Shown here in pieces: positions 18,679-34,847 of a stretch of 64,000 bases of DNA. Both the position numbers and the translations under genes were made by a program. The stretch is taken from the IMG/VR virus record IMGVR_UViG_3300045976_000031, positions 1-64,000 of that record. One strand, written 5' to 3'. The notes under the pieces were generated by a model that was not told where the DNA came from, did not search any database, and worked only from the letters and a program-made list of their open reading frames with translations. Source of the DNA: a virus. Positions within the stretch are counted from its first letter, which is position 1; each line of letters opens with the position of its first letter.

Positions 18679-18921
18679 TCACCACCCGCAGAGCTTACGC
18701 CCGGTCAGATTATGTTCGAGAATCTGGCGCGCCGTGGCGTCGCTGATCTGGTCCACCTTCGAGATGTAGATCGGCTTTGCGGTCGCGCAGTAATCAGGCT
18801 GCGTTGCCGCTATCGCCTTTTGAACCGGCGTCGGTGCCGGCGTCGTCGTCCCGCATCCAGTCGCGACGAAGCTGGTCAGCAGCACCGCCATCAGGCAGCT
18901 TACGCGTGTCAGTTTCAGCAT
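18679..18921 (-). CDS. Outer-membrane spanin-like lipoprotein
   Basis: 80 aa starting at 18921 behind GGAG. A lipoprotein signal (LLTSFVATGC) places the lipidated residue at Cys23. The mature part has a Thr/Pro stretch, then a conserved-looking ISDATARQILEHN segment and a terminal Cys. About 128 bp overlap the inner-membrane spanin gene in another frame, the classic Rz/Rz1 arrangement. Role: with the inner spanin, disrupts the outer membrane at lysis. Confidence 0.75.
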   Translation of the reverse strand: MLKLTRVSCLMAVLLTSFVATGCGTTTPAPTPVQKAIAATQPDYCATAKPIYISKVDQISDATARQILEHNLTGRKLCGW

Positions 18922-19093
18922 CGTGAACTCCTTTCGCGCCGGCCGCAGAGCGCAGCGCCTCGTTGTAGTTGGCCTTCTTTTCAGCCGCCTTTTTCGCTGC
19001 GCGGCTTCCCCATGCGTAGGCACCGACCAGGACCAGAAGTACGGCCCATGCGGTGAGCGCCCACGACTTCAGTTTGTCGGCGAGGGGCAGCAT
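18794..19093 (-). CDS. Inner-membrane spanin-like protein (Rz type)
   Basis: 99 aa. One N-terminal transmembrane helix (AWAVLLVLVGAYAWG, about 13-28), then a basic helical stretch and a KLPDGGAADQLRRDW motif seen in phage Rz-like proteins. Its 3' end overlaps the lipoprotein gene. Shorter than lambda Rz (153 aa), so the periplasmic rod would be short. Directly follows the endolysin gene. Confidence 0.75.
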   Translation of the reverse strand: MLPLADKLKSWALTAWAVLLVLVGAYAWGSRAAKKAAEKKANYNEALRSAAGAKGVHDAETDTRKLPDGGAADQLRRDWMRDDDAGTDAGSKGDSGNAA

Positions 19094-19789
19094 TTAGGCC
19101 ACCACGCCGTGCTGGTGTTTCTTGATCTGCGAGTACGCGATCACGAGCGCGAAGCCGATGGTGATGACGCCGATGATGACGCTCACCCAATTGCCCGACG
19201 TGAGGTGTTCCTGCTGCGAGTTGAACGCGTTGACGATCTGCGGTGCCACGTCGGCGATCTGCGCGACGCCCACGGCAGCGGTGCCGGTTGCCGCCACGGT
19301 TTCCTTCGTGACCGGCACAGCGGCGACGACGGCGGCCGGCTGCACGACACCCGCGCGTTGCAGCGCTACGTCGATGGTCGAATCGTCGTACCAGGTGTTC
19401 GCGGTGGTCAGCGGGCCGCGTCCGTTCTCGTGGCGGATGATCGCTTCGACGATGGGGCGCAGGTGCGCGTACGTGTGCAGATCGAGAGTCTGCGTCAGGC
19501 CGAAGCCGGTGGCGCGCGCGACGCCTTCAGCGTACGCCTGGGTGTCGTTCTCGTTGTTCGGCGCCCACCGACCGATGATGCCGGTGATCGTGCGCAGGTT
19601 GTATTTGTCCTGGTAGTTGATGAGGATGACGGCCAGGGCGCGAATGCCCCATGACGCATCTTTGAATTGCGCGAAGCGCGGGTCGATGGGTTGCGGCTTC
19701 GGGTCGAGTCCCTGCCACTTGTCATTGCCCTTCTCGATGTTGCCGGGATTGTTGTTGCGAATTCCTCGCGGTTTGGCGTTCGTGCTCAT
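19094..19789 (-). CDS. Endolysin with C-terminal membrane segment
   Basis: 231 aa, started at the ATG at 19789 (GGAG upstream, ATGA overlap with the preceding gene). Residues 8-18 are RGIRNNNPGNI, and GIRALAVILINYQ then GRWAPNNENDT follow, the signature of phage peptidoglycan-degrading proteins of the NNNPGN type (glycosidase or transglycosylase). Unusually, residues about 200-222 form a transmembrane helix (VSVIIGVITIGFALVIAY) with a short His/Lys tail. It may tether the enzyme or help it reach the periplasm (inference). Confidence 0.75.
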   Translation of the reverse strand: MSTNAKPRGIRNNNPGNIEKGNDKWQGLDPKPQPIDPRFAQFKDASWGIRALAVILINYQDKYNLRTITGIIGRWAPNNENDTQAYAEGVARATGFGLTQTLDLHTYAHLRPIVEAIIRHENGRGPLTTANTWYDDSTIDVALQRAGVVQPAAVVAAVPVTKETVAATGTAAVGVAQIADVAPQIVNAFNSQQEHLTSGNWVSVIIGVITIGFALVIAYSQIKKHQHGVVA

Positions 19790-20202
19790 TGGTCTTTGCT
19801 CCATTCACGAAGTTGACGTTGCTGCTGCTGGGTGGGGCGCGGTGCGAAGATCAGTTGGTTCAACATGCCCTTGATCTCGCCGATGTCGGACTTCACGTCA
19901 GCGCGCAGCGATACGTTCGATGCAGCCTGGTCGACGCGAAGTGCGGCGATTGCGGCTTCGTTCTTTTCAAGACGCTGCTGCAAAACGGACACCGCAAAAT
20001 CCGTCGCCATCTGGCGCTTGTCGAGGTTGTAATACAGGCCGACACCACTGGCCGAGATGGTGATGACCAGCGTTGCGAGAGTAAGCAGTGTCGGGATGTT
20101 AAGGGTCAGGTCTACGCGCATACGTGGTGCCCGCCGATCAAGTCCGACAATGCGCTCGTCGGCTGCGGGCGATGCGGTCGTTTGTTCATTTGCCGATTCC
20201 AT
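19786..20202 (-). CDS. Holin-like membrane/coiled-coil protein
   Basis: 138 aa. A charged N-terminus, one transmembrane helix (residues about 36-58, LLTLATLVITISASGVGLYY), then a coiled coil (about 68-120, LQQRLEKNEAAIAAL). The layout and position directly upstream of the endolysin fit a holin or lysis-associated protein, but a single helix with a long cytoplasmic or periplasmic rod is not diagnostic. Confidence 0.55.
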   Translation of the reverse strand: MESANEQTTASPAADERIVGLDRRAPRMRVDLTLNIPTLLTLATLVITISASGVGLYYNLDKRQMATDFAVSVLQQRLEKNEAAIAALRVDQAASNVSLRADVKSDIGEIKGMLNQLIFAPRPTQQQQRQLREWSKDQ

Positions 20203-20276: not shown

Positions 20277-22244
20277 TCACGACATCGAAACAGTGACAAT
20301 CGGTCTAGGACCTGTTCGTCTCGGAATTCCGACAAGTGAAGGGTCGATCAACAGTGCGAATTCGACCACCGATGCCACCGCGATCTCGGACATACCGAAG
20401 TTCCCTTGCAGCGACGGGTCACGGACGGCCACCGCAGCCCCTACAAGCGACGATTGAACTGCGGACGCTGGGATCATAGGGTTCGGGAACTGCGCGTCTC
20501 CTACGGCCGCAGATTCGGCCACGCTGGCGGCCTGCACGACGGACTGCGGGATCATCGAGTTCGGGAACGTCGAGTCGCCGAGCGCCACCGATTCGACCAG
20601 GCCGGCCACCTCGGCGTCAGACTGCGACACCTCGGCACCAGGGAACGTGTCGCGGACCACCGCACCCTCGAACACCTCGAACGTCCTGATCTCGGACGTG
20701 GGCACGGTCGGGTCGATCCAGCCCTGGTTGTCGCCGACCACGACATCGGCGGCCACCTGGATCGCGGTGACAGCGGACATCGGCCCCCAATCGGTATCGC
20801 GGATCACCACCTCGGCCGCGACCTGGCCGACGTAGGTTTCCGGGATCACTGGCGGCGGTTCGTCCGGTGCCGGGAACGTGCTGTCGCCGGCCACGACGTG
20901 CTCGACCAGGTTGAACACGTAACGCGACTCGCGGCTGATCGTGCCCGGCGATGTCGTCTCGCGATGCAGCAGCGCCATCATCGTGAGCGTGGCCGCATGC
21001 CGGCCGATGGCAGGGTCGATCACTTCCCACGGCTTCGGCGTCGTGCGGCCGAGCGTGAACGTCAGTTGCATCTGCATCGCGTACAACGGCGAGCGGCGTT
21101 TGACCGACGAGTCGAGGCGCTGCATGACGACTTGCTCTTGCAGCGTGCGAGAGTGCCGGCCTTGTGCGTAAGCCGGCGCGTACGTCTCGCGGTGCAGGAC
21201 CGCCAGTTCGACCGACGTGGACACGCGGGTCGTCGAGCGGTTCGTCACAGCGTCGCGCGGCGTCACGGTCTGCTGCACGAACGCGGCCACCAGGTCGTCG
21301 CCGTGCGGCGGTGCGATGTCGCGGAGACGTACCGCCTGCTGCACGAACGTCACCACGTTCTCACCACTGTTCGGTGGAACCACATCGCGGCGCTGCACGA
21401 CCATCTCGGTCAGGATGGCGTTGTCGATGGGTGAATGCGGTGCGCCTCGGCCGCTGGCCTGGATGACCTGTTCGACGAGAGTGAACGCGTCAGCCTTGGT
21501 GGTGATGACGACGACCTGGTGCGCGCGTGTAGCGATGAACTGCTGCACGAGCGTGGCCGCCGTGATCGTGGTGCGCGCCTGGTCGGGGCGGATCGAATCG
21601 CGGTGCTGGACAACCTGCTGCCGCTGGCCGGTGATACGAATCTCGGACACCGCGACGTACGCGATGCCGCGCGACTGGACCACGAGTTCGCGGTAGGTGC
21701 CGACGTAGTTGTTGCTCTTGACTGTCGGCGCGCCAGGCGTGATGCGACGCGAGATCACCTGCATGTTCAGCGTGGCGGCGAAGTCCGTGCTGCGCGCCCA
21801 CGGTCGGACAGTGGACAGCACGACTTGCTCGCGGTACGTCGCCACGTCGCGCGCGGAATGCACGGTCGACGGCAGCGCCATCGCAGGTCGCTTCTGGATC
21901 GCGGTCTGTCGATAGTTCCTGATAACGCGCTGCACAGACAGGTATTCGTTCTGCGAACTGTACAGAACTTCGCGTGATGCGTGAATGGCGCGGAATGGCG
22001 GTTCCTTGAACAGCACTTCACGCACCACGCTCGCCACGTCAGCGTAGATGTTCTGGCCGACCTTATCGCCGGTAAGGACATCGCGGCTGACATGCTGCAC
22101 GTCCGCATACCAGTCCCGCCCGACACGAGTGCCGGACAGGATTTCGCGCGTGACCCCGCCACCAACGTCTGCCACGAAGTCGAGCGCCGGCCGTTCGCTG
22201 GTCAGCGTTTCGCGTGTTACGGGAGTTACGTTAGTTTGAGCCAC
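20277..22244 (-). CDS. Long repeat-built structural protein (tail-associated)
   Basis: 655 aa made almost entirely of degenerate units of about 22-35 residues: V-QQ-V-RD-x-P patterns (FVQQAVRLRDIAPPHGD, FVQQTVTPRDAVTNR) and TREILSG/SRDVLTG/VREVLFK at the N-terminus, AVAVRD/VALGDSTFPN at the C-terminus. No known domain. Last gene before the lysis terminator, after the fibre genes, so probably a fibrous virion or adsorption component (inference). Confidence 0.6.
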   Translation of the reverse strand: MAQTNVTPVTRETLTSERPALDFVADVGGGVTREILSGTRVGRDWYADVQHVSRDVLTGDKVGQNIYADVASVVREVLFKEPPFRAIHASREVLYSSQNEYLSVQRVIRNYRQTAIQKRPAMALPSTVHSARDVATYREQVVLSTVRPWARSTDFAATLNMQVISRRITPGAPTVKSNNYVGTYRELVVQSRGIAYVAVSEIRITGQRQQVVQHRDSIRPDQARTTITAATLVQQFIATRAHQVVVITTKADAFTLVEQVIQASGRGAPHSPIDNAILTEMVVQRRDVVPPNSGENVVTFVQQAVRLRDIAPPHGDDLVAAFVQQTVTPRDAVTNRSTTRVSTSVELAVLHRETYAPAYAQGRHSRTLQEQVVMQRLDSSVKRRSPLYAMQMQLTFTLGRTTPKPWEVIDPAIGRHAATLTMMALLHRETTSPGTISRESRYVFNLVEHVVAGDSTFPAPDEPPPVIPETYVGQVAAEVVIRDTDWGPMSAVTAIQVAADVVVGDNQGWIDPTVPTSEIRTFEVFEGAVVRDTFPGAEVSQSDAEVAGLVESVALGDSTFPNSMIPQSVVQAASVAESAAVGDAQFPNPMIPASAVQSSLVGAAVAVRDPSLQGNFGMSEIAVASVVEFALLIDPSLVGIPRRTGPRPIVTVSMS

Positions 22245-22253
22245 GGTTCACCA

Positions 22254-24395
22254 TCACGAGGTAACGCGCATGCCGAACTTCGCAGCGGCGGCTTCAGCAG
22301 GCGTCCACGCGGCCCCGGTATCCGGGTTCGTAGTGGCGACGTTGTATGCAGGGACATAACCGGCCAGTGGTGTGAGCGGCGTGTCGATCAGCGCGGTCGT
22401 GTAGGCCATCATCATGCCGTTTTGTCCGACGATGAACCAATCGCCATTCGGCAGTGCGCACGCAGCATACGGATTTCCGGGCAACAGAGGTTGCCGACGC
22501 CAGTTAGCGCCGCCATCCTGGGTCGTGACGGTCGTGTTCATACCAGAAGCGTTCAGGATGACACCGCTGACCGGATCGCCGAACGAGAAGTTGATGACGA
22601 ACTGCGGCGAGCCGTTGGTGTTGTAAGTCGGAGATGCCCACGACACGCCATCCTGCGAGCGCTTGATGTAGTTCGCGGACGCGGTGTTCTGGCTCATGAT
22701 GGTGAACCAGGTGCCGTCGAACCCAAGCTGGTTCGCACCAAGACCTTCGCTCATCGAGGTCGCGATGCCGGTGGGTCGCGCCGTCCAGGTCAGCCCCTTG
22801 TCGTCGCTCGTGAAGACCGATGTGGCGGCGACAGCGGCAACCACGCGCCCAAGTCCAGGGTGATACAGCAGCGCGCCGACTGCGGCAGTGCTCGGAACGA
22901 GAAGCGTCCAACTTGCGGGAAGGGCCGGGTCTTTGTCGCCAGCGCAGCGCCACACGCGCCCGCCGTTCGCGCCAACGAGAATCGTGTTGTCCGGCAGGAC
23001 GAGCGTGCAGTTCGGCGCGTATCCGCTAATGGCGCTGATAGCGATGGCTGCACCAGGCGTATCGCTGCCTGGCGGGATGATCTGAACCTTGTAGTCGTTC
23101 CGCACGATGATGCCGGTGCCGTCAGAACGGAAGCACACCAATCCCCAATTGTTCGCGTTACCTTCGTCGGAGATCAGCGTCCACTGCGTATTCGCGTCAG
23201 CGGCGGGACCGCTCGCAGTGAGGGACGGGCCGATGCCTGCTGCGAACACCTTGCCGTCCGTGGGGCGACGATTCACCGAATACGTGTGCTTCCCATTCGG
23301 CAGGCTCGCGAGCGTTACGAGTGTGCGCGGCTTCGGGTCTTCCTTCTCGACGCCACCTGGTGACACGACCAGCGCGCGCAGCGTATGAGGATTCGATTCG
23401 AGGTTCGACGCCAGCACCTTCGTCACGACGGCGTGCACCAGCTTGCCGCTACTGGTGGACGTGTCTTTGTCGGTCGAGTAGATGTCCTGGTCGCCAGCAT
23501 TCGACGATTGCAGCGTCCAGGTCGGCGCGTCAACCAAGTCTTGCCCTGCCACCGCAGCGTTGCTCGGCGCGTCGACCGGACGAACGAAGTCCACGTCCAC
23601 GTCGTTGTTCGCGCGGACGCCGGAAATGCGGGTCGTCGGGCCGAGACGTACGTTCGGAGCCTGCGAATCTTCGACCAGGTTGTACCAGTTCGAGATCGCC
23701 CAGCGACCGGCCGCGCCCTGCATGAACGTCGCCGGTGCGGTCACGTTATTCTGAATCAGGGTAAAGCCGATGGCATCGGTCGGCGGCGATACGACGTTTT
23801 GCAGGACAAGCACGTCGTCGACCCACACCTTCACGTCGGCGTCGGACACGCGGTACTCAATGAACGCCAGGCGGCCGGGCACAAGAGTCTTCGTGCTTTG
23901 ACGGACACCGTTGTAGTTCGAGATCGCCAAGTCGCTGCTAATCGCGAAAAGGCAGTTCGCGACACCGGGCACGAAAGACTGATCGGTCGCCAGGGTGCCA
24001 ATGCAGTACAGCACGCCGACGGTGCTGACGCCGTATGTGTTCGGCACGTACTCGGGCGGAACGTACAGGCTGAAGCCGCCGATCACCACGTCACCCTGCG
24101 ACGCGAGCGGTTTCTTGATGCCGGCCTGCGTCGTGTAGGCTGAACCCTTCGACGCGTTGTTCGTGTTCCCCGACGAGAAGACGAGCGCCTGGCGATCCGG
24201 GTAGACGGGATCGGGGCGCACGATGAATGCGCCGCTGGTCTGAGCGTCGGTGTTGTCGCCGATGAGAGATTGGTAGCCGGCGCGCTTGAACGCGGCCTGG
24301 AACGCCTTGCGCATTGCCGTGTTCGCGGTGTTGTAGGCGTCGTCGCCGGTCCACTGCGAGAACGCCATGAACGATTCGGTGGAAAGAAGAGACAT
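22254..24395 (-). CDS. Tail fibre/receptor protein with LamG-like core and beta-propeller
   Basis: 713 aa. Residues 1-230 look like a concanavalin/LamG-like jelly roll (GGFSLYVPPEYVPN, then IEYRVSDADVKVWVDD). Residues about 235-350 carry a block shared with the two downstream-encoded fibre proteins (TRISGV..NNDVDVDF). Residues about 360-680 form repeated SDDKGLTWTARP and QDGGANWRRQP motifs of BNR/HCF136-type propellers. Good AAGGGGGA site. Likely receptor-binding. Confidence 0.75.
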   Translation of the reverse strand: MSLLSTESFMAFSQWTGDDAYNTANTAMRKAFQAAFKRAGYQSLIGDNTDAQTSGAFIVRPDPVYPDRQALVFSSGNTNNASKGSAYTTQAGIKKPLASQGDVVIGGFSLYVPPEYVPNTYGVSTVGVLYCIGTLATDQSFVPGVANCLFAISSDLAISNYNGVRQSTKTLVPGRLAFIEYRVSDADVKVWVDDVLVLQNVVSPPTDAIGFTLIQNNVTAPATFMQGAAGRWAISNWYNLVEDSQAPNVRLGPTTRISGVRANNDVDVDFVRPVDAPSNAAVAGQDLVDAPTWTLQSSNAGDQDIYSTDKDTSTSSGKLVHAVVTKVLASNLESNPHTLRALVVSPGGVEKEDPKPRTLVTLASLPNGKHTYSVNRRPTDGKVFAAGIGPSLTASGPAADANTQWTLISDEGNANNWGLVCFRSDGTGIIVRNDYKVQIIPPGSDTPGAAIAISAISGYAPNCTLVLPDNTILVGANGGRVWRCAGDKDPALPASWTLLVPSTAAVGALLYHPGLGRVVAAVAATSVFTSDDKGLTWTARPTGIATSMSEGLGANQLGFDGTWFTIMSQNTASANYIKRSQDGVSWASPTYNTNGSPQFVINFSFGDPVSGVILNASGMNTTVTTQDGGANWRRQPLLPGNPYAACALPNGDWFIVGQNGMMMAYTTALIDTPLTPLAGYVPAYNVATTNPDTGAAWTPAEAAAAKFGMRVTS

Positions 24396-24404
24396 GCTTC
24401 CCCC

Positions 24405-25415
24405 TTATCGCGCAATGATGCCGAAGGACGACGACTCGACCAGGTTGCGGGTCCACGGCGTGCCGCCCGGTGCCTGCTCGTAGATCACCTGCTTGTAGCC
24501 GAAGTTCGTGTCGAGCGGCACCTGCGTTTCAACGTCGCCGCCGGCCGTGCCGAGGGTCATGCCCAGCTTGCGATCATCCAGGTCGCCCTTGCGCGCGTAC
24601 GACACGAGCGCCACGGCGAAGACGGTGTTCGCGTTCGGCAGCACCACGTTCGAGGTGAACTTGTCGGTCTTGCCGTCGACGTTGGCTTGCAGGTACGGCG
24701 CGTTTGCCTTTGCCGGCGCAAGCTGCGCGAGGATCGAGTAGTGCGTGCCGGTCGAGCCTACCGGCGTCCACTGCGTCGTCACGTCGGCGGTCGGTGCGCG
24801 CGAGATGATCTGGATCGGCGACAGGCGGGCGTTGTTCTGACCACCGCTGTTATCCAGGATATACAGGTCGTCGATGTCGATGGTGCCGGCGACGGTGGAC
24901 GACGACGACAAGCCCCAGGTGATCGTGTACACGGTGCCCACGCCGCCAGGCAGCGGGACCGACAGTTGCAGCGTGTCGTTCGCGTAGACGTTGACCACGC
25001 TGTTCGTCTTGTCGATCTCGATCTCGATGTACCAGTAGGCGTTCAGGATAATCACGTCCTGGCCCAGCGTGGACCCGACCTTCATCTTGCCGGTCGTGGT
25101 GTCCCAATCGAGGTCGATCACGCCAGCGATACGCGCGAAGCGCAGGCGCGATGTCACACCCTTGAACGAGAAGCCGAAGACGACTTTCGTGGCGGCCGAG
25201 GTCACGCTGCGCGAGAACGACGGTGGCGTAGAAGCGCCGGCCTGGATGCTCATGCGCAGGCCGAACGATCCGCTGTCCTGGCCGTCGACGATGTTGAACG
25301 TCGCATTGGTCGCATTGTTCACGGTGTAGCCGGCAGATTGCAGGTATGCGGTCAGGTCGGCGGCCAGGGCCGACTTGTCGGCGTAGTGGTCAAAGCCATC
25401 GGTGAAGAGAAGCAT
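24405..25415 (-). CDS. Tail fibre module of the DGFD family, no propeller
   Basis: 336 aa. Starts MLLFTDGFDHYADKSALAAD, the N-terminal signature shared with the neighbouring larger protein. A jelly-roll region (about 70-190, with IEIEIDKTNSVVNVYANDTL) and the common C-terminal block (APTADVTTQW, then KGDLDDRKLGMTLG) follow. Simplest version of a paralogue family of fibre or receptor subunits. Confidence 0.75.
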   Translation of the reverse strand: MLLFTDGFDHYADKSALAADLTAYLQSAGYTVNNATNATFNIVDGQDSGSFGLRMSIQAGASTPPSFSRSVTSAATKVVFGFSFKGVTSRLRFARIAGVIDLDWDTTTGKMKVGSTLGQDVIILNAYWYIEIEIDKTNSVVNVYANDTLQLSVPLPGGVGTVYTITWGLSSSSTVAGTIDIDDLYILDNSGGQNNARLSPIQIISRAPTADVTTQWTPVGSTGTHYSILAQLAPAKANAPYLQANVDGKTDKFTSNVVLPNANTVFAVALVSYARKGDLDDRKLGMTLGTAGGDVETQVPLDTNFGYKQVIYEQAPGGTPWTRNLVESSSFGIIAR

Positions 25416-25427
25416 GAGGGTTTCCTT

Positions 25428-27314
25428 TTATGGGCGAACGGCGATGCCGAACGGAGTGTTGACAACCGAGTCTGCGGTCCAGGCTTGATCGCCAGGCGCT
25501 TTCTCGAAGACTGCGAAACTATATTCCATCGTGGTCGAGAGGGTCGTGTCGATCACCTCTTTCTGGTTGCCAGGTGCACCCACCACGAGGCCAAGCTGGC
25601 GCGCGTCCAGGTCCGACTTCTGCGCGAGCGCGATCACGCCCACGGCCAGGATTGGCGCGGCTGCGGTGCCAGCGCCGGCCGGCAGCGGCGAGTTCGACGA
25701 GTAGAGGTCCTGCTGGCCCGAGACGGCGGAACGCACGTAACTCGCGCTTGACGGAGGCAGCAGGCCCACCAGCGACCAGTGCGGCGCGTCGACCGATCCC
25801 GTCCAGTTCACGTCAACGTCGGCGGTCGGCATGCGCACCGGGATCGTGATCGGCTTCAGGCGGTTCGTCAGCGTCGCGCCGCCCGTCACATCGCTATCCA
25901 GGATGTACAGGTCATCGACGCGGCCGACTGCACCGTTCTCCGCTTCCCACGACATCACGTAATCGGTCATGTTCGCGGCGGCGGCCGGCAGCGCGACGGA
26001 CAGGTCGGCCGTGTCGTTGACGAACAGGGACAGCGTGTTCGCCTGCTTGTCGATCACGATCTCGTAGTAGTACCAGGTGTTGCGGATCGGGACGCTCGCG
26101 CCGCGCGTGCCGAGAATTTCAATGCCGGCCGGCCAGTCCATGTCGAACAGGTCTTTGATGCTGAAGATTCGGCCGCGCGCGGTAGCCATGTGCGCGAAGC
26201 CGATGACCACGCGGCTCTGCGTCGACGAGAACGTGCGCGACACGATGGTCGGCGGTGCCAGGGACACGTAGATCGTGGCGACGCTCGTGGTGCTGCCGCC
26301 GTTGCGCGCGCCCACCAGGACCCAGCCGACTTGCGTGCCGGTCGAGCGGTTCACCGCATACAGCGGAATGCTGCCGCCGACGCCAGTGAAGGCCGGCTTT
26401 GTCCAGGTCGTCGTGTCGTCCGAGATGTACAGGCGCGCGCCGTCGCCGACAACGACCCAGCGACCGTCTGCGACAGCGACGCCGTAGAACTGGCCGTAGG
26501 TGTTCAGCGCATCCGCAGCGGTGGCCCAGGTGACGCCGTGGTCGACCGAGCGACGCAGGTTGCCGCTGTCGATGGCGATCAGCGTGCCGTTGAACGCGGC
26601 GATGCCGTTCACGTTGCCGTTCGAGCCGAACGCGCGCGTCGTGAAATTGTCGCCGGTCGTCGACGTGAGAATCTGACCACCGAGGCCGCCGACGATCCAG
26701 GTGGTCCCGTCGTAGACCACGCTGCGGTTGCCGCGCGCACCCGGATTCTCCGTGACGCTGGACCAGCTTGCGCCGTCGTCATCCGACACGAACACGCAGC
26801 CGGCGTTGCCGAGCGTGCCGACAGCGAGCCAGCGCGCGTTGCCGAATGCGACGGCCGACAGGTTCGCGGCACCGTTCGGAGCGCTGCGCACCGACCACGC
26901 CTGGCCGTCCGTCGAGCGGAGAATCGTGCCGCCGTCGCCGACCGCGATCCAGGTGCCGGCGTTGCATTCGATGTCCTTCATGTTGGCGTTCACGCCGAGG
27001 ACCAGCGGCGACCACTGGATGCCGTCAGTCGTCGTCGCGGCCAGGCCGCCGTCGCCCACCGCAACGTACCGGCCTTGCGTGTTCGAGGCCACGCCGTGCA
27101 GATCGCCCTTGATGGTGTTCGTGCGGCTCGACCAGGATGAACCAGCAGCGCCGGCCGCGACCTGAAGTTCGAGCGCGTACGCCCCGTTCTTCCGGCCGGC
27201 CGCCATGCCGAGGCCCGACGTTACGGCGTAGCCGGCCGCCGTCAGCGACGACAGCAGCGTTTGCCCTGACTGGCCCTGGTACTGGTCAAAGCCGTCGATG
27301 TGTTTGAGTCCCAT
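25428..27314 (-). CDS. Tail fibre module of the DGFD family with inserted propeller
   Basis: 628 aa. MGLKHIDGFDQY start and C-terminal MPTADVDVNW ... DLDARQLGLVVG block match the 336-aa neighbour. About residues 58-350 are inserted: repeats with VAVGDGG, STDGQAWS, SDDGASW, SVDHGVTW and SDDTTTW, a BNR beta-propeller. The jelly roll resumes after it (YYYEIVIDKQANTLSLFVND). Clear domain-insertion relative to its paralogues; likely changes receptor specificity. Confidence 0.8.
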   Translation of the reverse strand: MGLKHIDGFDQYQGQSGQTLLSSLTAAGYAVTSGLGMAAGRKNGAYALELQVAAGAAGSSWSSRTNTIKGDLHGVASNTQGRYVAVGDGGLAATTTDGIQWSPLVLGVNANMKDIECNAGTWIAVGDGGTILRSTDGQAWSVRSAPNGAANLSAVAFGNARWLAVGTLGNAGCVFVSDDDGASWSSVTENPGARGNRSVVYDGTTWIVGGLGGQILTSTTGDNFTTRAFGSNGNVNGIAAFNGTLIAIDSGNLRRSVDHGVTWATAADALNTYGQFYGVAVADGRWVVVGDGARLYISDDTTTWTKPAFTGVGGSIPLYAVNRSTGTQVGWVLVGARNGGSTTSVATIYVSLAPPTIVSRTFSSTQSRVVIGFAHMATARGRIFSIKDLFDMDWPAGIEILGTRGASVPIRNTWYYYEIVIDKQANTLSLFVNDTADLSVALPAAAANMTDYVMSWEAENGAVGRVDDLYILDSDVTGGATLTNRLKPITIPVRMPTADVDVNWTGSVDAPHWSLVGLLPPSSASYVRSAVSGQQDLYSSNSPLPAGAGTAAAPILAVGVIALAQKSDLDARQLGLVVGAPGNQKEVIDTTLSTTMEYSFAVFEKAPGDQAWTADSVVNTPFGIAVRP

Positions 27315-27323
27315 GTTTTCCCC

Positions 27324-28289
27324 TTATGGTGCGGTGACGTTGAATCCGAATTCGGATGTCGTGATTTTAGCTGGCGTGTCAGTCGGGACCGCCTCGAAGC
27401 AAACGTACTGCGTCTTCCAATCCGCGTCGACGGTGCGCGCGGCCGACCGATCATCCGCGTCGCCGCCGATGAAGACGCCCAGCTTCGCGTTCAGGTTCGG
27501 CGACTTGCGCGCCAGGACAACGACGCCGGTTGCGACCACGGCGTTCTCGCTGGCGAGCGGCTGAATCGACTTGAAGCGGTCCTCACTGCCGATGTTCGCC
27601 GACGCGACATAGTGGTCGAGCGGCTGCGGCGGATGGATCGAGAGGGTCTGCGCGTGCGAGCTATTCGTGTCGGTGTTGAACCATTCGACGTGCGCATCGC
27701 TAGTCGGGAACCTGGTCGTCACCGAGATCGGGCCGAGCCGCGTGTCGTCGCGCATGTACCAGTCGTCGTAAGTCTTCGCGGCGGTGTCGCTCGGGACCGG
27801 CGTGACGCCCGGCCGGTAGCTGACCGGATCAACCCATCCCAGGCCGACCTCGACTTCCTGCGCCGTGAACGCGTCGACGGCGAACTGCATTTCCTGTCGG
27901 CCGTTGATGTGGACCGTCACCTGGCCCGCGCGCGTCAGCGACATCTCGAAGTAGTACCAGCGATTCTTCGTCGGCAGCGCGCCGCCCATCTGGTCGTTCA
28001 CCATCGGCATGCCGTTGTCGGGATTCATCCACAGCACGAGCGTCGACGCCCCGATCTTCAGGCGCGCCACGGAACCGCGATCAGAGAATTGATGCGCGAA
28101 GCCGGTGCTGAAGTTTGCGGTCGTCCAGGGCACCTTCCGCGACAGCATTCCGTTCTGCGTCGAGATGCCGTTCGAGAAGCGCCCGGCCACCAGGGCAATC
28201 GAGCCGGTCGTGATGTAGTCTGCGCGGGCCAGCGCGGAAGCCGGCGATTGCTCGCCAGCGAATTCCTCGAACCCGGTAATGTGGATCAT
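27324..28289 (-). CDS. Tail fibre module of the DGFD-related family
   Basis: 321 aa starting at 28289 behind GGAG (longer upstream frame lies inside the previous gene). Starts MIHITGFEEF, a divergent version of the DGFD start. The jelly roll contains RWYYFEMSLTRAGQVTVHIN and the C-terminal block FPTSDAHVEW ... LNAKLGVFIG. No propeller. Overlaps the previous stop by ATGA. Confidence 0.75.
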   Translation of the reverse strand: MIHITGFEEFAGEQSPASALARADYITTGSIALVAGRFSNGISTQNGMLSRKVPWTTANFSTGFAHQFSDRGSVARLKIGASTLVLWMNPDNGMPMVNDQMGGALPTKNRWYYFEMSLTRAGQVTVHINGRQEMQFAVDAFTAQEVEVGLGWVDPVSYRPGVTPVPSDTAAKTYDDWYMRDDTRLGPISVTTRFPTSDAHVEWFNTDTNSSHAQTLSIHPPQPLDHYVASANIGSEDRFKSIQPLASENAVVATGVVVLARKSPNLNAKLGVFIGGDADDRSAARTVDADWKTQYVCFEAVPTDTPAKITTSEFGFNVTAP

Positions 28290-29023
28290 GTGGTAGCTCC
28301 GTTTCGGTTGAGTAGCATGCGGATCGTCGCGGCGTAATTCTCGAAGCCGGCAGGCGGATTGTCGGGCACGCGGATCGCGAACAAATCGCCGGCAGCATAC
28401 ACGACGTTCTGCGTCACATCGACCGTGCCCTTCACGTTCGACGGCGTGAACGTAATGCGGCCGACGATGCTGTCGTTGCGGTAAATCTCGAAGCGCACCA
28501 GGCCGATAGGCGGGACCACCGCGCGCGCCGTCGACTCGGGTGCGCCGGCCGGCAGCGTCATCGCCTCGGGCACGGCCAGCAGCGCCAGGTATTCCTCGGG
28601 TTCCGGCTCGAACGACACCGACACTGCCACGTCGTAGCGCGAGCCGAGCGGCACCGGCTCCGCACCGCTGTTCTGGTCTTCGCCGATCCACTCTTCGCCG
28701 TTAAACCAAATCCAGCCTTCCGGGTTCTTCAGGCGCGCGCGCACGCCTTCGGTCGGCTCCGCGAAAATCCAGCCGGTCGGCGACAGCACGGCCAGGTCGC
28801 CGTCGTGCGTGGCCCAATCGCCGAACGCACCATCCGCGACGATGTACATGTCGCCCACGGTCAGGCCGGTCTGCGGCGGCGCGCCTTCGCTCATGGAGAT
28901 GATGACCGGGTTCAGCAGCATGTCGATCTTGACGAAGTTCGCCGACACCGGATCGCCCCACCAGTCCTCGCCGCGCAGCCAGCCGTACGAGAGTTTCAGT
29001 CGCGATGATTCTTTCCTTGGCAT
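28286..29023 (-). CDS. DUF2793-type tail protein
   Basis: 245 aa started at 29023 (AGGGGA upstream). Residues about 50-110 (PPQTGLTVGDMYIVADGAFG, DLAVLSPTGWIF, WIWFNGEEW) match the DUF2793 pattern of phage tail and baseplate-associated proteins. The second half is a beta-rich domain of unknown role. Located between the tail-tip proteins and fibres, consistent with an adaptor. Confidence 0.75.
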   Translation of the reverse strand: MPRKESSRLKLSYGWLRGEDWWGDPVSANFVKIDMLLNPVIISMSEGAPPQTGLTVGDMYIVADGAFGDWATHDGDLAVLSPTGWIFAEPTEGVRARLKNPEGWIWFNGEEWIGEDQNSGAEPVPLGSRYDVAVSVSFEPEPEEYLALLAVPEAMTLPAGAPESTARAVVPPIGLVRFEIYRNDSIVGRITFTPSNVKGTVDVTQNVVYAAGDLFAIRVPDNPPAGFENYAATIRMLLNRNGATT

Positions 29024-29024
29024 T

Positions 29025-31475
29025 TCAATTCCCCTGGTTGTCTTTGTTGTAGGCGTCCCAATGACGATCCCAATTCGTATCCCAATGTCCGGCCAGTTGC
29101 GGGTTCGGGTCTTCCGGGTCCGGTTCCGGCTGCGGGTCGACCGGCGTGGGCCAGTCAGGCGGCAGATCGGGCGGTGGCGGTGGACCGCTGCCATCGTCGC
29201 CACCTCCGTCGTCGCCTGGAAGCTGCGGATCGCCGCCGCCAGTATTATCGCCGCCGCCCCCGCCTGGCGGTGGTGGATTGGATGGCGGTTGCGTGGTGCC
29301 ATTGCCGCCGCCCGTATTCGGCGGAAGCTGGCCGCCGCCTGGTGTTTGACCGACCGGGCAGGAATACGACGGCAGCAGCAGCGGGATCACGTAGCCCTGC
29401 CACGACGTGAGATCGTTGCGAATGGTTTCCAGGTACAGGCCGACCGTGACGCGGCCACACGCGTTCAGCAGCGAGCCGGCGCGGTAGCCATCCGACGATG
29501 CCATCGCCGCCGTGTAGTCGTAGCTGGTGCCTTCCACGATGTCGTTGCGGATCGTCGCCACGTAGGACTTCTTCGCGATGCTGTCGTACAGCGTCAGCTT
29601 GATCGAGAGGCGGTACTTCTGGCCGTCCTCTGGCACGCGATTCGGCGCATGGTGATCGACGGCCTGCGCGCCCTGCGTGTCGCGGTTGCGGTGGTTCCAG
29701 GTGATGTGCGCGGTGACGCCGGCCGCCATCTGCGCGCCCATGTACCACGGCTTGCCGTTCACCAGCACCTCACCTGGCGGGTAAGGCCGGGCCACGCGCT
29801 GCGCGGTATCCAGGCGGTCGGTCGGCACCAGCTTCAGGTCGACAGGCGGGCCGTACACGCCCGGCACCATCTTCACCTGCATCGCCGCGCCCAGCACGCG
29901 GTTCGCCGCCATCGTCAGCGGATAGTCGGTCGGATCATTGCCGGCCGCCGCCTCGAAGAACCACACCCGCGCGCCGGCCGCGTGCTTCGTCGGCACGGTG
30001 TCGAACACGCCGCGCGCGATGGTGAACGTGTCGGCGGTGCGGCTTTCGATGCGCACCATCTCCGCGTCGACGAGCGCCACCTGGCCCGGCTGCACGTTGT
30101 CCAGGGCCACGCCGTCGTAGAAGGACGATCCGCCGATGGTGATGGTCGTGTCCAGGTAGTCGACGGTCGCGGCCAGGGTGATCCAGGGCGTGAACGCCGG
30201 GTCGACCTTGCGCTGGTATTCCAGCACCTCGCCGGTCCCGGCCGGGAAGTCGTAGCGGGTCCAGATCGAATGCGTGTCGGTGAGGCGGTCGCTCGGCCGC
30301 GCCACGACCGTGACCAGCTTCGTCGCGCTCGACGACTCGCCGCGTCGCTTCAGCAGCGCATACGGTGCCTCGAACAGATTGCGGTTCAGCGAAGCCGGCA
30401 GGCTGGTCTTCTGGCCGGCGCTCTCGTGCAGGTTCGCCACGTACATCGCATTGGACGCCGGGATCGCGTTGTAGGCGTCGTCGAGCGGCTGTGCGACCAC
30501 CTGCGCCGCCTGCGCGCCATAAACGCCGCTGGCGGGCGGATACGGGCCTCCGGTGTGCTCGATGTCGTCGACCTGGCCCACGATCTGCGCGGCCTGGCCG
30601 ACCTTGATGAAAATGCCCTGCGTGTTCACGCTGAACGGGATCGTGTAGCCCTGCCACGAGTCGAAGCCGTCGCGCGTCGAGTAGATCGTCATCAGGCCGT
30701 CTTCGACCGTGCCCTTTTCCAGCGCCACCGGAATCTGAAGGTCCGACATGGCCTGGCCCCAGGTGTACGTCCACGACGGCGGAACCAGGTTGCCGTACAT
30801 GTCGCGCGGATCGGCCATGATGCCGACTTCGGTGCGCATCAACACGCCGTTCTTGTTGAAGATGCGGACGGTGTACGTCGTGCCAGGCTCGGGTCCGACG
30901 CTCGGGTCATCGTGGTCGAGAAGCTGGTCGGCCTGGATGATGCGGTCGCGGTGGTTCCAGGTCAGCGGCAGCAGCGGATCGTCGGCGGTCATGGTGTGCG
31001 GCACCCACCAGCGATCCCCGCGCACGCGCAGCGCGCCAGGCGGATACGGGCGGAACTGCCGCCAGTTGTACGTCACGGCGTCGACCTCGGACGCGGCCAG
31101 TGGCAGCTTGCCGCCGCCGATGGTGAACGGCGCGTACTTCACGGATGTCGTCTCGCCGGCACTGTGCTCGGCCAGGTCGCCGCCGATGCCCTGGATCGGG
31201 TTCAGGAACCAGATCAGCGTCTCCTTCGCGTGGCGCGCCGGCACCGTGTCCGCGCAGCCGCGTTTCACCGCGATCTGGCCCGGCGCGATGGCCGTCACCT
31301 GCATGAACTCGTCGTCGCACAGCGCCGGCATGCCGACCTTCAGCGAGTCGATGCGCGGGAAGTTCGCGCGGCCTAGTTTGATGGTGCGGTCCAGGTAATC
31401 AATCGGCTCGGCCAATTCGGACAGCGGCGCGAACTGCGCGCTGCGGCCATCTGCTTTGTAGTCTTCGTTTGCCAT
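29025..31475 (-). CDS. Tail-tip associated protein, paralogue 1, with Pro/Gly-rich tail
   Basis: 816 aa started at 31475. Two copies of KRGCADTVPARHA/ARGVFDTVPTKHA-type units with WFLN/WFFE, FRPYPPG-type blocks and a W-HRDR/W-NHRNR motif match the adjacent 607-aa protein, marking a tandem duplication. Residues about 680-790 are an extreme Gly/Pro/Asp-rich linker ending in an Asp/Trp-rich tail (HWDTNWDRHWDAYNKD). Follows the tail-tip gene; probably decorates the tip or carries fibres. Confidence 0.7.
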   Translation of the reverse strand: MANEDYKADGRSAQFAPLSELAEPIDYLDRTIKLGRANFPRIDSLKVGMPALCDDEFMQVTAIAPGQIAVKRGCADTVPARHAKETLIWFLNPIQGIGGDLAEHSAGETTSVKYAPFTIGGGKLPLAASEVDAVTYNWRQFRPYPPGALRVRGDRWWVPHTMTADDPLLPLTWNHRDRIIQADQLLDHDDPSVGPEPGTTYTVRIFNKNGVLMRTEVGIMADPRDMYGNLVPPSWTYTWGQAMSDLQIPVALEKGTVEDGLMTIYSTRDGFDSWQGYTIPFSVNTQGIFIKVGQAAQIVGQVDDIEHTGGPYPPASGVYGAQAAQVVAQPLDDAYNAIPASNAMYVANLHESAGQKTSLPASLNRNLFEAPYALLKRRGESSSATKLVTVVARPSDRLTDTHSIWTRYDFPAGTGEVLEYQRKVDPAFTPWITLAATVDYLDTTITIGGSSFYDGVALDNVQPGQVALVDAEMVRIESRTADTFTIARGVFDTVPTKHAAGARVWFFEAAAGNDPTDYPLTMAANRVLGAAMQVKMVPGVYGPPVDLKLVPTDRLDTAQRVARPYPPGEVLVNGKPWYMGAQMAAGVTAHITWNHRNRDTQGAQAVDHHAPNRVPEDGQKYRLSIKLTLYDSIAKKSYVATIRNDIVEGTSYDYTAAMASSDGYRAGSLLNACGRVTVGLYLETIRNDLTSWQGYVIPLLLPSYSCPVGQTPGGGQLPPNTGGGNGTTQPPSNPPPPGGGGGDNTGGGDPQLPGDDGGGDDGSGPPPPPDLPPDWPTPVDPQPEPDPEDPNPQLAGHWDTNWDRHWDAYNKDNQGN

Positions 31476-31477
31476 CG

Positions 31478-33301
31478 TCAGCACGGATAGGAGGGAACGC
31501 GGATCGGCACCACGTAGGATTGCAGGGACCGCAGCGTGTTGATCTTCGCTTCGATGCGGCAGTAGATGACGACCGTACCGCACACGCCCAGCGCGCGGCC
31601 GGCGACCAGGCCATCGGCTTGCGCGAGCGCGTACGGGTACATGTAGCCGGTCGCGGCCACGTCGACGTTGCGCAGGACGTTCTGCACGGCCGGCAGGCCC
31701 GAGTCGGCGGCCGGCGTCTCGTAGTAGAAGGTGAGCGCGACGACCTGGCTGTCTTCCGGCACCTGGTCAGGGTCAGCGTGCGCCACCGTGCCGCCGCCAG
31801 TCGTCAGGCGATTCCGGCGCGCCCACGAGAAGGCGACGGCGCTGCCCGAGGTTGCCTGCGCTTCCTCGAACCAGGGCCGCCCATTGACGACGATGCGGCC
31901 AGGCGCGTACGGCAACTTCGCGCGACCGTTCAGCACCAGGGACAGCGACGGCAGCGTGTTGAGCGGATACGGCGTGCTGTAGCTGACCGGGCGCAGCTTG
32001 TAAGTCGGCATTGCGCCGTCAGTGCGCGGCGCAGGATCGAACGACGATGACGACTCGAAGAACCACAGCCGCGATCCAGCGATGTGCGCGGCCGGCACCG
32101 TGTCCAGGCATCCGCGTTTGACCGTGATCTGCTTCGCGTCGACGGCGACCACCTGGACGATCTCGGCGTCGATCAGCGCGAGTTGCCCGACCTGGACGCC
32201 GCGCAGCGCCACGCCGTCGTACAGCGACGAGGTGCGCACGTTGACGATGGTTTCAAGTTCCGGCAGGCGGAAGTCCGACGTGACCCACGGCGTGAAGAAC
32301 ACCTGGCCCGAACCGACCGGCGAGCCGTCGACGAACAGTTCGTACTTGTCGGCCATGCGGTCGCTCGGGCGCGCGGCAACGGCGAGCACATGATCGGTCG
32401 TCGGGTCGGCCACCGCGTAGCGCACGTTCACCGCGTACGGCGTTTCGATGATCGCCTGCGAGAACTGCTGGACGTTCGCGGGCAGCGGCGCGCCGGCCGG
32501 GTGCACGTCGACGGCCATGCTGTACCACTGCCACGCCTCGAAGCCGTCGCGGCTCGACGTGAGCGTGCAGATCGGCGTCAGAACCTCGCTCGGGTTGCCC
32601 AGGTCGTAGAGCGCCTGCACGCGTCGGTAGGTGAAGTCGGTGCCGACGATTCCTTCCTCGATCCGCGCGACCTGGTGCGTAATCGGATGGTACATGCGGA
32701 AGGTGTAGGTCACGCCCGGCTCCGGGCCGATGCTTGCATCGTCGTGCCCGACAAGCTGGTCGGCCTGCAACACGCGGTCGCGGTGGAACCAGGTGACGTG
32801 CATGCCGTCGTTGCTGTCGTCGACCACGGACGTGACGTTGAAGCGCTGGCCGTCGACCATGACGTGCGCGGGCGGGTATGGGCGGAACACGCGCCAGTTG
32901 AACGTCACCTGGTCCGGTGGGATGCGCGCCGGGAGCATGCCGCCGCCGCCGATGGTGAATGGCGACGCCTTCACGCCCACCACCTCGCCGGCCGAGCGTT
33001 CCACGCGGTCGGTGCCGGTAGTCGACGAATCGAACAGCCACACTACGCTGTCGGCCGGCTGCGCGGCGGGCACGGTGTCGGCGCAGCCGCGACGCACGGT
33101 GAGCGTGGTGCCGTTGATCGCGTCGATGCGCATGATCTCGTCGCCGACCATCGCGGCCATGCCGACGTGCAGCGCATCGGGCCGGGCCAGGCGGGCGCGC
33201 GTGTAGGTGAAGCTGGTGTCGAACGGGCCGAGCGCCACGTCCAGCGCCACGGACGATGCGAATGCCCCGTTCCCTTTTTTGTTGTAGTCCTCGTTTGCCA
33301 T
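31478..33301 (-). CDS. Tail-tip associated protein, paralogue 2
   Basis: 607 aa. Shares MANEDY start, RRGCADTVPA and KRGCLDTVPAAHIAG repeats, VFRPYPP, WFHRDRVLQADQLVGHDD and SIGPEPG with the 816-aa protein downstream. Lacks the Gly/Pro-rich tail and stops at PSYPC. Two residues separate it from the tail-tip gene. Function inferred from position only. Confidence 0.7.
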   Translation of the reverse strand: MANEDYNKKGNGAFASSVALDVALGPFDTSFTYTRARLARPDALHVGMAAMVGDEIMRIDAINGTTLTVRRGCADTVPAAQPADSVVWLFDSSTTGTDRVERSAGEVVGVKASPFTIGGGGMLPARIPPDQVTFNWRVFRPYPPAHVMVDGQRFNVTSVVDDSNDGMHVTWFHRDRVLQADQLVGHDDASIGPEPGVTYTFRMYHPITHQVARIEEGIVGTDFTYRRVQALYDLGNPSEVLTPICTLTSSRDGFEAWQWYSMAVDVHPAGAPLPANVQQFSQAIIETPYAVNVRYAVADPTTDHVLAVAARPSDRMADKYELFVDGSPVGSGQVFFTPWVTSDFRLPELETIVNVRTSSLYDGVALRGVQVGQLALIDAEIVQVVAVDAKQITVKRGCLDTVPAAHIAGSRLWFFESSSSFDPAPRTDGAMPTYKLRPVSYSTPYPLNTLPSLSLVLNGRAKLPYAPGRIVVNGRPWFEEAQATSGSAVAFSWARRNRLTTGGGTVAHADPDQVPEDSQVVALTFYYETPAADSGLPAVQNVLRNVDVAATGYMYPYALAQADGLVAGRALGVCGTVVIYCRIEAKINTLRSLQSYVVPIRVPSYPC

Positions 33302-33302
33302 A

Positions 33303-34847
33303 TCAGGTGCCAGTGGTAGGTGGGAATTCGTCAGGTGTCGGCGCGCCGTCTTTCACGTACAGGTTGTACGCCAGGGACAGATCGCTCGGCTTCTCGACCA
33401 CCGTGCCGATATAGCCGGCATCGTTGGCGACGTACGCGAAGTCGGCGGGTGACATCGAGCCGGCCAGGATGAAGTACGGGACCTCGAACGCGCGGTGATT
33501 CAGCAGCACCGGGGCGTTGTCAGGCTTCACCGGGTTCGGCGGCTGCTGGCCGATGAACGATGCGGACGGCAGGCCGAACACGTCCTGCACGGCGGTGATC
33601 GTGATGGTCCCGTTCGTCAGCGTGCCGTCCTCGATCTTGCCGGCTCGGACCACGATGTCGCCGATCCCGCGCACGGTGTCCTGGATGCGGAAGACGCCGG
33701 CCGGTGGGATGCGCCAGGCGCGCCGGTCGAACGTGATGGTGAACTGGCGCAGGGCCATCGCGCTAAGTCGAAGTTCGCGCTGCGCCACGCGGCGGGCCAG
33801 TTCGGCGGTCGGCAATCCGCTGTACGTTTTCTTGATCGAGTTGAACACGCCGCGCGTGGCCTGAAGCGATGCGAGGTTCTGCGCGTTCACGGTACGCACC
33901 TCGTTGCTCACCGGGTCCGTGTATTCGACGATGACCTCGTTGACGGCCGGCCCGAGACTCGACACCGCGTTCTCTTTGATTTCCAGCACGCCGCTGTCTG
34001 TCGAGTAGACCGGGAGTGTCGCCACGTCGTAATCCTTTCGGATCAGCTTCAGGGTAATGAGCGACGTTTCGCGGTCGGCATAGATCGCTGCGCCGATGTG
34101 GTCGATCACGGACTGCACGAACGAGTCGAGCGCATCGCGGCGCGCCCACTTGATGCACAAGCCGAATCCCTCGGCGGCCAGCGTGTCGGCGGCTGTCGTG
34201 AACGATGCCACGTTCAGCGACGACGCCGGCAGGCCACGGCCCCACTCGCGATTCGTGTAGCACTCGTACAGGATGTGCGCAGGGTTCATCGCGTGGATCG
34301 GCGGATACGTCACGTTGGTCTGCACGTCGGTGTCGACCACCTGCCACTTCCACGGACTGCCCTGATTCTGAAGGACCGGCGTGCTGGTGGTCGTCGTCAC
34401 CTTGTCGCCGTTCAGTTGGATCAGCGCCTTCTCGGGATACCAGGGCGCGTCGTCCTGCCAGCCCTTCGTCGTGCGGCGCACGCGGAAAGACCAGGCTTTC
34501 GGATACGGCGAGTTGCTGGCGATCTGGCCGTTGTAGAAGCCAGTGACCATGCGGCGAAAACCCGGCAGCGCGTGCCCGAGCATCTGGACCAGCGAGGCCA
34601 CGGCCTTCTGCGTCGGCTCACCCATCATCAACTCGAACTTACCCTTGATGCCGCCTTCCTGGTTGTCGCCGCCGAACAGGTCCGGCTTGTCGATCATGAA
34701 GGAACCGGACGCACTCTGTTCGCCTTCCCAGGCCACTTTGTCGCCCACCTTGATCGCGACGATGGAATTCACCGGGCCGCGACCCAGGCCCATGTGAATG
34801 CCGAAGCTGTACTTCCACCCGGTAATCGGGTCACTATTCTTGCCCAT
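33303..34847 (-). CDS. Tail-tip/hub protein (gpJ-like family)
   Basis: 514 aa. Start KYSFGIHMGLGRGPVNSI with KVGDKVAWEGE matches phage tail-tip proteins of the Nazgul and lambdoid-tail groups. The centre (AHILYECYTNREWGRG; later FTITFDRRAWRIPPAGVF) is typical of the hub domains before host-range fibres. Overlaps the small 73-aa gene start. Likely initiates the tip and adsorption complex; shorter than lambda gpJ (1132 aa), with host-range parts split into following genes. Confidence 0.75.
   Translation of the reverse strand: MGKNSDPITGWKYSFGIHMGLGRGPVNSIVAIKVGDKVAWEGEQSASGSFMIDKPDLFGGDNQEGGIKGKFELMMGEPTQKAVASLVQMLGHALPGFRRMVTGFYNGQIASNSPYPKAWSFRVRRTTKGWQDDAPWYPEKALIQLNGDKVTTTTSTPVLQNQGSPWKWQVVDTDVQTNVTYPPIHAMNPAHILYECYTNREWGRGLPASSLNVASFTTAADTLAAEGFGLCIKWARRDALDSFVQSVIDHIGAAIYADRETSLITLKLIRKDYDVATLPVYSTDSGVLEIKENAVSSLGPAVNEVIVEYTDPVSNEVRTVNAQNLASLQATRGVFNSIKKTYSGLPTAELARRVAQRELRLSAMALRQFTITFDRRAWRIPPAGVFRIQDTVRGIGDIVVRAGKIEDGTLTNGTITITAVQDVFGLPSASFIGQQPPNPVKPDNAPVLLNHRAFEVPYFILAGSMSPADFAYVANDAGYIGTVVEKPSDLSLAYNLYVKDGAPTPDEFPPTTGT

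Follow-up and report, generated by a model that had tools for sequence, protein, structure and literature searches.

The window (the whole stretch of DNA analysed, 64,000 nucleotides) takes in 64.0 kb of an IMG/VR virus record that is 64.4 kb long, and its source is a new Casjensviridae-like siphophage. The minus strand of the window was found to contain, in order, the terminase, a portal-like protein, the major capsid protein and the tape measure (four calls that rest on reading the translations), followed by the J-like tip ORFs, a phrog_7049 fibre gene, four phrog_2448-type genes, a gene encoding a 655-aa repeat protein and the lysis genes (Table 1). An earlier note, made from the sequence alone, had given the repeat gene the coordinates 20277-22244, which are correct; the strand of the ORF is minus. 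The note had also placed the gene after the fibres and before the lysis terminator. This was confirmed, as the phrog_7049 gene and the four phrog_2448-type genes precede it, and a strong stem-loop (20274-20245) and then the lysis genes follow. Since the terminator-like hairpin lies at the stop codon, the repeat gene ends the tail operon. In the J-like region, the second and third tip ORFs both matched positions 543-811 of phrog_1101, which suggests a duplication.

Table 1. Features of the tail-fibre and lysis region of the window, in minus-strand order.
Feature	Positions	Strand	Description
J-like tail-tip, three ORFs (33303-34847, 31478-33301, 29025-31583)	29025-34847	minus	One 1296-aa gene in Chi (CHI_30)
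phrog_7049 tail fibre protein	28286-29026	minus	Equivalent to CHI_31 / YSD1_30
phrog_2448 protein	27324-28292	minus	True start at about 28292, inside a longer ORF
628-aa phrog_2448 protein	25428-27314	minus	Inserted YCF48/BNR-like region
336-aa phrog_2448 protein	24405-25415	minus	Predicted concanavalin-like jelly roll (residues 1-206) and C-terminal domain
713-aa partner	22254-24395	minus	phrog_2448/phrog_10924-type region (69-381) and C-terminal BNR/YCF48-like part
655-aa repeat protein	20277-22244	minus	GTG start 22244, stop 20277; almost certainly the orthologue of Chi gp36 / YSD1_35 / JS26 gp49
N-terminal zone, residues about 1-330	21255-22244	minus	Period 21-22; VxREVLxG / FVQQxVxxRD motifs; z 5.0
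C-terminal zone, residues about 440-640	20325-20927	minus	Period 25-26, loop GDxxFPNPxIPxS; z 5.6 and alignment
Conserved C-terminal end GIPRRTGPRPIVTVSMS	20280-20330	minus	Equivalent to Chi gp36 MPQPPRKHRVQITCRFVY, similar to phiCbK gp316 ERPRRLIFMLGA
Intrinsic-terminator-like stem-loop	20245-20274	minus	12-bp stem, T run, directly after the repeat-gene stop
Lysis cassette	18794-20202	minus	phrog_7686 lysis-type protein, endolysin, Rz-like spanin

The repeat ORF was taken to be a real gene because of its GC content by codon position (0.67/0.48/0.80, with the neighbours alike) and because it is under purifying selection, the dN/dS values being 0.14/0.46 against the homologue in the viral contig L002 and 0.39/0.83 against that in L003. 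The dN against L002 was 0.14 for the repeat gene vs 0.04 for the 336-aa partner, which indicates a faster divergence of the repeat gene.

The repeat protein contained about 25 short imperfect motif copies. By lag autocorrelation (BLOSUM62), the N-terminal half showed a period of 21-22 residues (z 5.0) and the last 180 residues a period of 26 (z 5.6); neither value was reached in any of 500 shuffles. The same periods were found in the L002 and L003 homologues, and the Chi-type relatives had a C-terminal period of 25-26 with z of 8-13.5. The repeats described earlier over the whole length of the 655-aa protein are therefore real, being well above shuffles and kept in relatives. Their unit length, which had been given as 22-35 residues, is better described as about 22 at first, rising to 25-26 along the chain, with irregular spacers in some places. 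The shift of the consensus from the N- to the C-terminus was also borne out, with a VxREVLxG-like N-terminus, FVQQxVxxRD in the middle and VxxVxExxAxGDxxFPNPxIPxS at the C-terminus. The identity of only about 18% between branches and the varying phase of the repeats would agree with a neutral expansion of low-complexity sequence in a protein that the phage could do without and that plays no specific structural part. However, the purifying selection, the length of 580-720 aa and the synteny kept across many genera, and the conservation of S/P/D positions and of the C-terminal end make such an origin highly improbable.

The phrog_2448-type genes of the window are paralogues. For the 336-aa partner (25 homologues aligned), a concanavalin-like jelly roll was predicted at a pLDDT of 93.8, and the model gave Z of 14-18 to lectin and glycanase domains (sialidase lectin domains, GH131 glucanases and alginate lyases). 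A YCF48/BNR-like beta-propeller region was present near the N-terminus, as an insert, in the protein of 25428-27314 and at the C-terminus of that of 22254-24395. Three to five phrog_2448/phrog_10924-type genes were found to precede the repeat gene in all the examined Casjensviridae genomes that carry it; profile comparison identified these partners in Chi, JS26, Saba, AchV4 and the window, and position and length did so elsewhere. The length of the repeat array and the number of ConA-like partner genes gave a rank correlation of rho 0.89, which was set aside as evidence, the lineages being hand-counted and non-independent.

The repeat gene was the last of the tail-fibre cluster, before the lysis genes, in the phages Chi, YSD1, SP-030, Redjac, JS26, JC01, Saba, pPM_01, SAP012, Enc34, Smarc5, SNUABM_08 and AchV4. 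The order shared by these phages was J-like tip, phrog_7049 fibre, phrog_2448-type genes, repeat gene and lysis. The window protein agreed with the Chi gp36 superfamily in the last place in the tail-fibre cluster with phrog_2448-type genes before and lysis genes after, in the 25-26-residue C-terminal repeats, and in its sequence, which hhalign related significantly to the superfamily along most of its length. At the same place, BcepNazgul contained neither a phrog_2448-type gene nor a repeat gene but one large different fibre instead.

Close relatives of the repeat protein were found in four viral contigs, with identities of 79% (L002), 55% (L003), 60% (L022) and 41% (L023). In a tblastn search of 50,697 phage records, the sole match was a weak one in Serratia phage JS26 (E 2e-3), and the two-sequence blastp comparison with JS26 gp49 gave E 1.6e-13. 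A much wider family came to light from the conserved gene order of JS26, Redjac and the Salmonella phage SP-030; its members include CHI_36 (gp36, uncharacterised) in the Salmonella phage Chi, YSD1_35 in YSD1 and gp49 in JS26. In hhalign, the window branch and the Chi branch were aligned over 437 columns with a probability of 98.7%, E 2e-16 and a score of 134. Reversed and column-shuffled profiles scored at most 20 and block-shuffled profiles, in which the repeats were kept, 34-70, so that the match at 134 reflects the repeat together with its collinear order. We are nearly certain that the repeat protein is a distant homologue and orthologue of Chi gp36, YSD1_35 and JS26 gp49.

Ten of the 13 members aligned in alignment A1 matched phrog_7226, a family of unknown function; the alignment was too divergent to scan the sequence collection with. 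The window protein gave no match to the phrog_7226 profile (E up to 1), nor did the whole window record (E up to 10). With no match to this model, the window protein was filed as a sister branch and not as a phrog_7226 member. The earlier statement that no family could be recognised was thus right in that the phrog_7226 model misses the window branch, and wrong in that the protein is distantly homologous to Chi gp36, YSD1_35 and JS26 gp49. The Chi gp36 family spans the Casjensviridae, including the flagellotropic Chi as well as YSD1 and JS26, and the window branch is a divergent one. No relative of the repeat protein was found in the bacterial and archaeal genome contigs scanned, and therefore no host was assigned.

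A few database entries deserve mention. With the cut-off relaxed to E 10, the phrog_7226 model gave one match in the control genome of Corynebacterium glutamicum. Staphylococcus phage SA1 (GU169904.1) and several Listeria/Enterococcus phage contigs contained sequence whose translation was 68-98% identical to that of Chi-type gene 36, a sign that these records are contaminated or were assembled as chimeras. In the records NC_029045.1 / KR296691.1 and NC_048632.1, Chi-type gene 36 homologues were labelled 'putative capsid protein' or 'site-specific recombinase', and one phrog_2448 protein in the same set was labelled 'Histone-lysine N-methyltransferase'; these labels are probably annotation errors.

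AlphaFold2 predicted no fold for the full-length monomer with six sequences (pLDDT 25.8). A fibre that is extended or obligately multimeric would be expected to give such a failure, but so would a shallow alignment. In Pfam, nothing was above the cut-off for the repeat protein (best PF00463, E 0.078), and the family profile had no match among PDB sequences (E up to 10). Known enzymes and characterised domains gave no match above the curated cut-off, and none of the beta-helix, pectate-lyase and collagen families was found. A beta-solenoid was disfavoured, as the hydropathy had no signal at 160-180 degrees, and collagen was disfavoured by a glycine content of only 5%. A weak helix-like hydropathy periodicity was present in the Chi-type members. 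The earlier reading of the protein as a fibrous structural element is the best supported one, by the conserved repeats, the invariant position at the operon end, the lack of an enzyme match and the lectin-fold partners that invariably accompany it; its fibre shape is unproven, as the AlphaFold2 monomer had no fold.

Mass spectrometry of virions, the check proposed in the earlier note, gives a mixed picture for two homologues. JS26 needs flagella for infection, and 21 proteins were identified in its virions by MS, all from the structural cluster gp46-gp74 (PMC8754663). By annotation, this cluster holds 29 genes, of which 7 resemble lysis or assembly-chaperone genes; by this gene counting, gp49 is probably among the 21 virion proteins. 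In AchV4, LC-MS/MS of virions detected gp23-gp26, of which gp24-26 of the partner cluster are thereby proven virion proteins, and did not detect gp27 and gp28 (PMC7996906). Trypsin is predicted to cut AchV4 gp28 (578 aa) into peptides of which 22 have a usable size, 7-30 residues. Loss or low copy number of a distal subassembly, or a role in assembly outside the virion, would explain why gp27 and gp28 were missed.

In the last of these cases, the repeat protein would serve as a multivalent scaffold or chaperone, bringing the lectin-like fibre proteins together while the tail fibre is assembled, and would be absent from the particle. Tail-fibre chaperone genes often sit last, after the fibre genes, which fits the position found here; the detection of AchV4 gp24-26 without gp28, the lack of a predicted autonomous fold and the short 69-aa version in phiCbK speak in the same direction. 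Nevertheless, the JS26 count makes gp49 a likely virion protein, chaperones do not usually have the 580-720 aa found in every Casjensviridae member examined, and in Brevundimonas phages the covalent fusion of motif arrays to a lectin-like protein suggests a structural part. Moreover, AchV4 gp27, which is ConA-like, was also missed, so that distal-subassembly loss or low copy number is an alternative. We consider an assembly factor unlikely, and regard the repeat protein as a probable structural component of the tail fibre that would be present in the virion.

Chi carries a single 220-nm curly fibre which wraps the flagellum (PMC4342425, PMC9266447), and YSD1_29 or CHI_31 is named as the fibre in the literature (PMC10399903 and, reportedly, Dunstan 2019). 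In our study, YSD1_29 was found to be the equivalent of CHI_30, which is a chain in PDB 8vjh and whose residues 1-763 match the J-like tip attachment protein of 8rk3, indicating a J-like hub. The structure 8rk3 is from phage JBD30. In 2019, Dunstan reportedly used immunogold labelling to identify YSD1_29, and not YSD1_35, as the long fibre of YSD1. The remaining 533 residues of CHI_30 would span at most 181 nm when fully extended, so that a length of 220 nm calls for other gene products or for an end-to-end chain of several copies. CHI_36, with 709 aa, would reach 220-241 nm when extended (220 nm at 0.31 nm per residue) and 106 nm as a helix, which is arithmetic and not proof.

The repeat protein could instead be a compact adhesin at the tip or side (for example, a beta-solenoid or a trimeric spike) that binds the receptor itself, the shaft being formed by the C-terminus of CHI_30/YSD1_29 and by CHI_31. 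The naming of YSD1_29 or CHI_31 as the fibre in the literature favours this, as does the fast divergence against L002 (dN 0.14 vs 0.04 for the 336-aa partner). The immunogold assignment said to have been made by Dunstan would favour it as well. The lack of any beta-helix, pectate-lyase, collagen or enzyme family and the hydropathy without beta periodicity, however, argue against an adhesin, and CHI_31 (246 aa) and the 533 residues of CHI_30 past the hub are alone too short for 220 nm. An adhesin of this kind is therefore regarded as quite unlikely.

Motif arrays were also found in unrelated phages. A VTQVVVEVL query matched the Caulobacter, Brevundimonas and Redjac arrays, and a synthetic VSQVVREVL query gave no matches. 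VTQxxVEVL arrays of 3-10 copies were present in a 595-kb uncultured phage as well as in the phiCbK-like and Brevundimonas phages; all of these arrays, LR756511 included, adjoin a phrog_2448-type gene or sit one or two genes away. The LR756511 copies contained a proline within the motif, in contrast to the weak helix-like periodicity of the Chi-type members. In Brevundimonas phages the arrays were fused to a glycine-rich lectin-like protein, which in Leszy and Delta (L024:3954-5303, L042:6182-7561) carried about ten terminal motif copies of 17-20 residues. The phiCbK gp316 (L025:4986-5195), whose gene is flanked by those of a tail protein and of a phrog_2448 protein, is 69 aa long and consists almost entirely of three RVTQETVEVI repeats. 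A motif model built from Caulobacter and Brevundimonas phages only found 4 sites in the N-terminal zone of the window protein vs 0.8 in shuffles (P=0.01); the same model strongly recognised the N-terminal repeats of the Redjac and Enc34 types, whereas several relatives were not recognised. A relationship between the window repeat family and the phiCbK-type arrays is suggested by these motif matches.

Overall, the explanation we favour, with some reservation, is that the repeat protein is a Chi gp36 orthologue which, as a structural part of the adsorption fibre, forms an extended strap and works with the lectin-like proteins. About 25 hydrophobic motif copies and proline-containing loops would give a long, poorly compact strap or shaft, and 3-5 concanavalin-like proteins from the genes just upstream may be held along it or built into the same fibre; both the fibre shape and the physical contact with the lectin-like proteins are presumed. 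In Chi-type phages, the strap and its lectin-like assembly would be a candidate for all or part of the flagellum-wrapping fibre of about 220 nm. That the repeat protein is part of the long fibre is given somewhat less than an even chance, and that it is the long flagellum-binding fibre is only suggested. A wider proposal, tentative and rather doubtful, is that the gp36-type protein is the unrecognised backbone of the single long tail fibre in Chi-like flagellotropic phages. As a strap stretched almost to its full length (655-709 residues vs about 220 nm), it would dock several concanavalin-like proteins in order through its 22-26-residue motifs, and in phiCbK-like and Brevundimonas phages the arrays of 3-10 motifs would do likewise at a smaller scale. 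CHI_36 / YSD1_35, a conserved but ignored gene, and its lectin-fold neighbours are testable candidates, and a motif array common to unrelated phages would be a new way of organising fibre proteins.

In comparison with known systems, the likeness of the repeat protein to T4-type long tail fibres, as elongated adsorption fibres, lies in function only; no sequence relation was found and the gene organisation differs. The phiCbK gp316 and the Brevundimonas 'lectin-like' protein arrays share RVTQxxVEVL-type motifs near a phrog_2448 gene and close to the lysis genes, and the C-terminal end in phiCbK, Leszy and Delta resembles that of the window protein. They differ in having 3-10 copies with a period of 17-20, in a 69-aa protein or as a fusion to a glycine-rich domain, and belong to unrelated phage families. 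The gp28 of the Achromobacter phage AchV4 resembles the window protein in its synteny, repeats and ConA-like neighbours, whereas it is 578 aa long, has three partners and was not detected in virions by MS (PMC7996906). JS26 gp49, the closest relative in a characterised phage by BLAST, is syntenic with a period of 26; the identity is about 19% overall, and JS26 contains five ConA-like partners whereas the window contains four. The proteins Chi gp36, YSD1_35, FSL SP-030 gp36 and Redjac_0080 differ from the window protein in having an identity of about 18-20%, in the N-terminal repeats, which are VxREVLxG-like in the window protein, and in the C-terminus, GPRPIVTVSMS in the window protein and RKHRVQITCRFVY in the Chi gp36 type. 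They are like it in gene position, neighbours and length (580-720 aa), and share with it the 25-26-residue C-terminal repeats, the YPD/FPN loops and the conserved C-terminal end.
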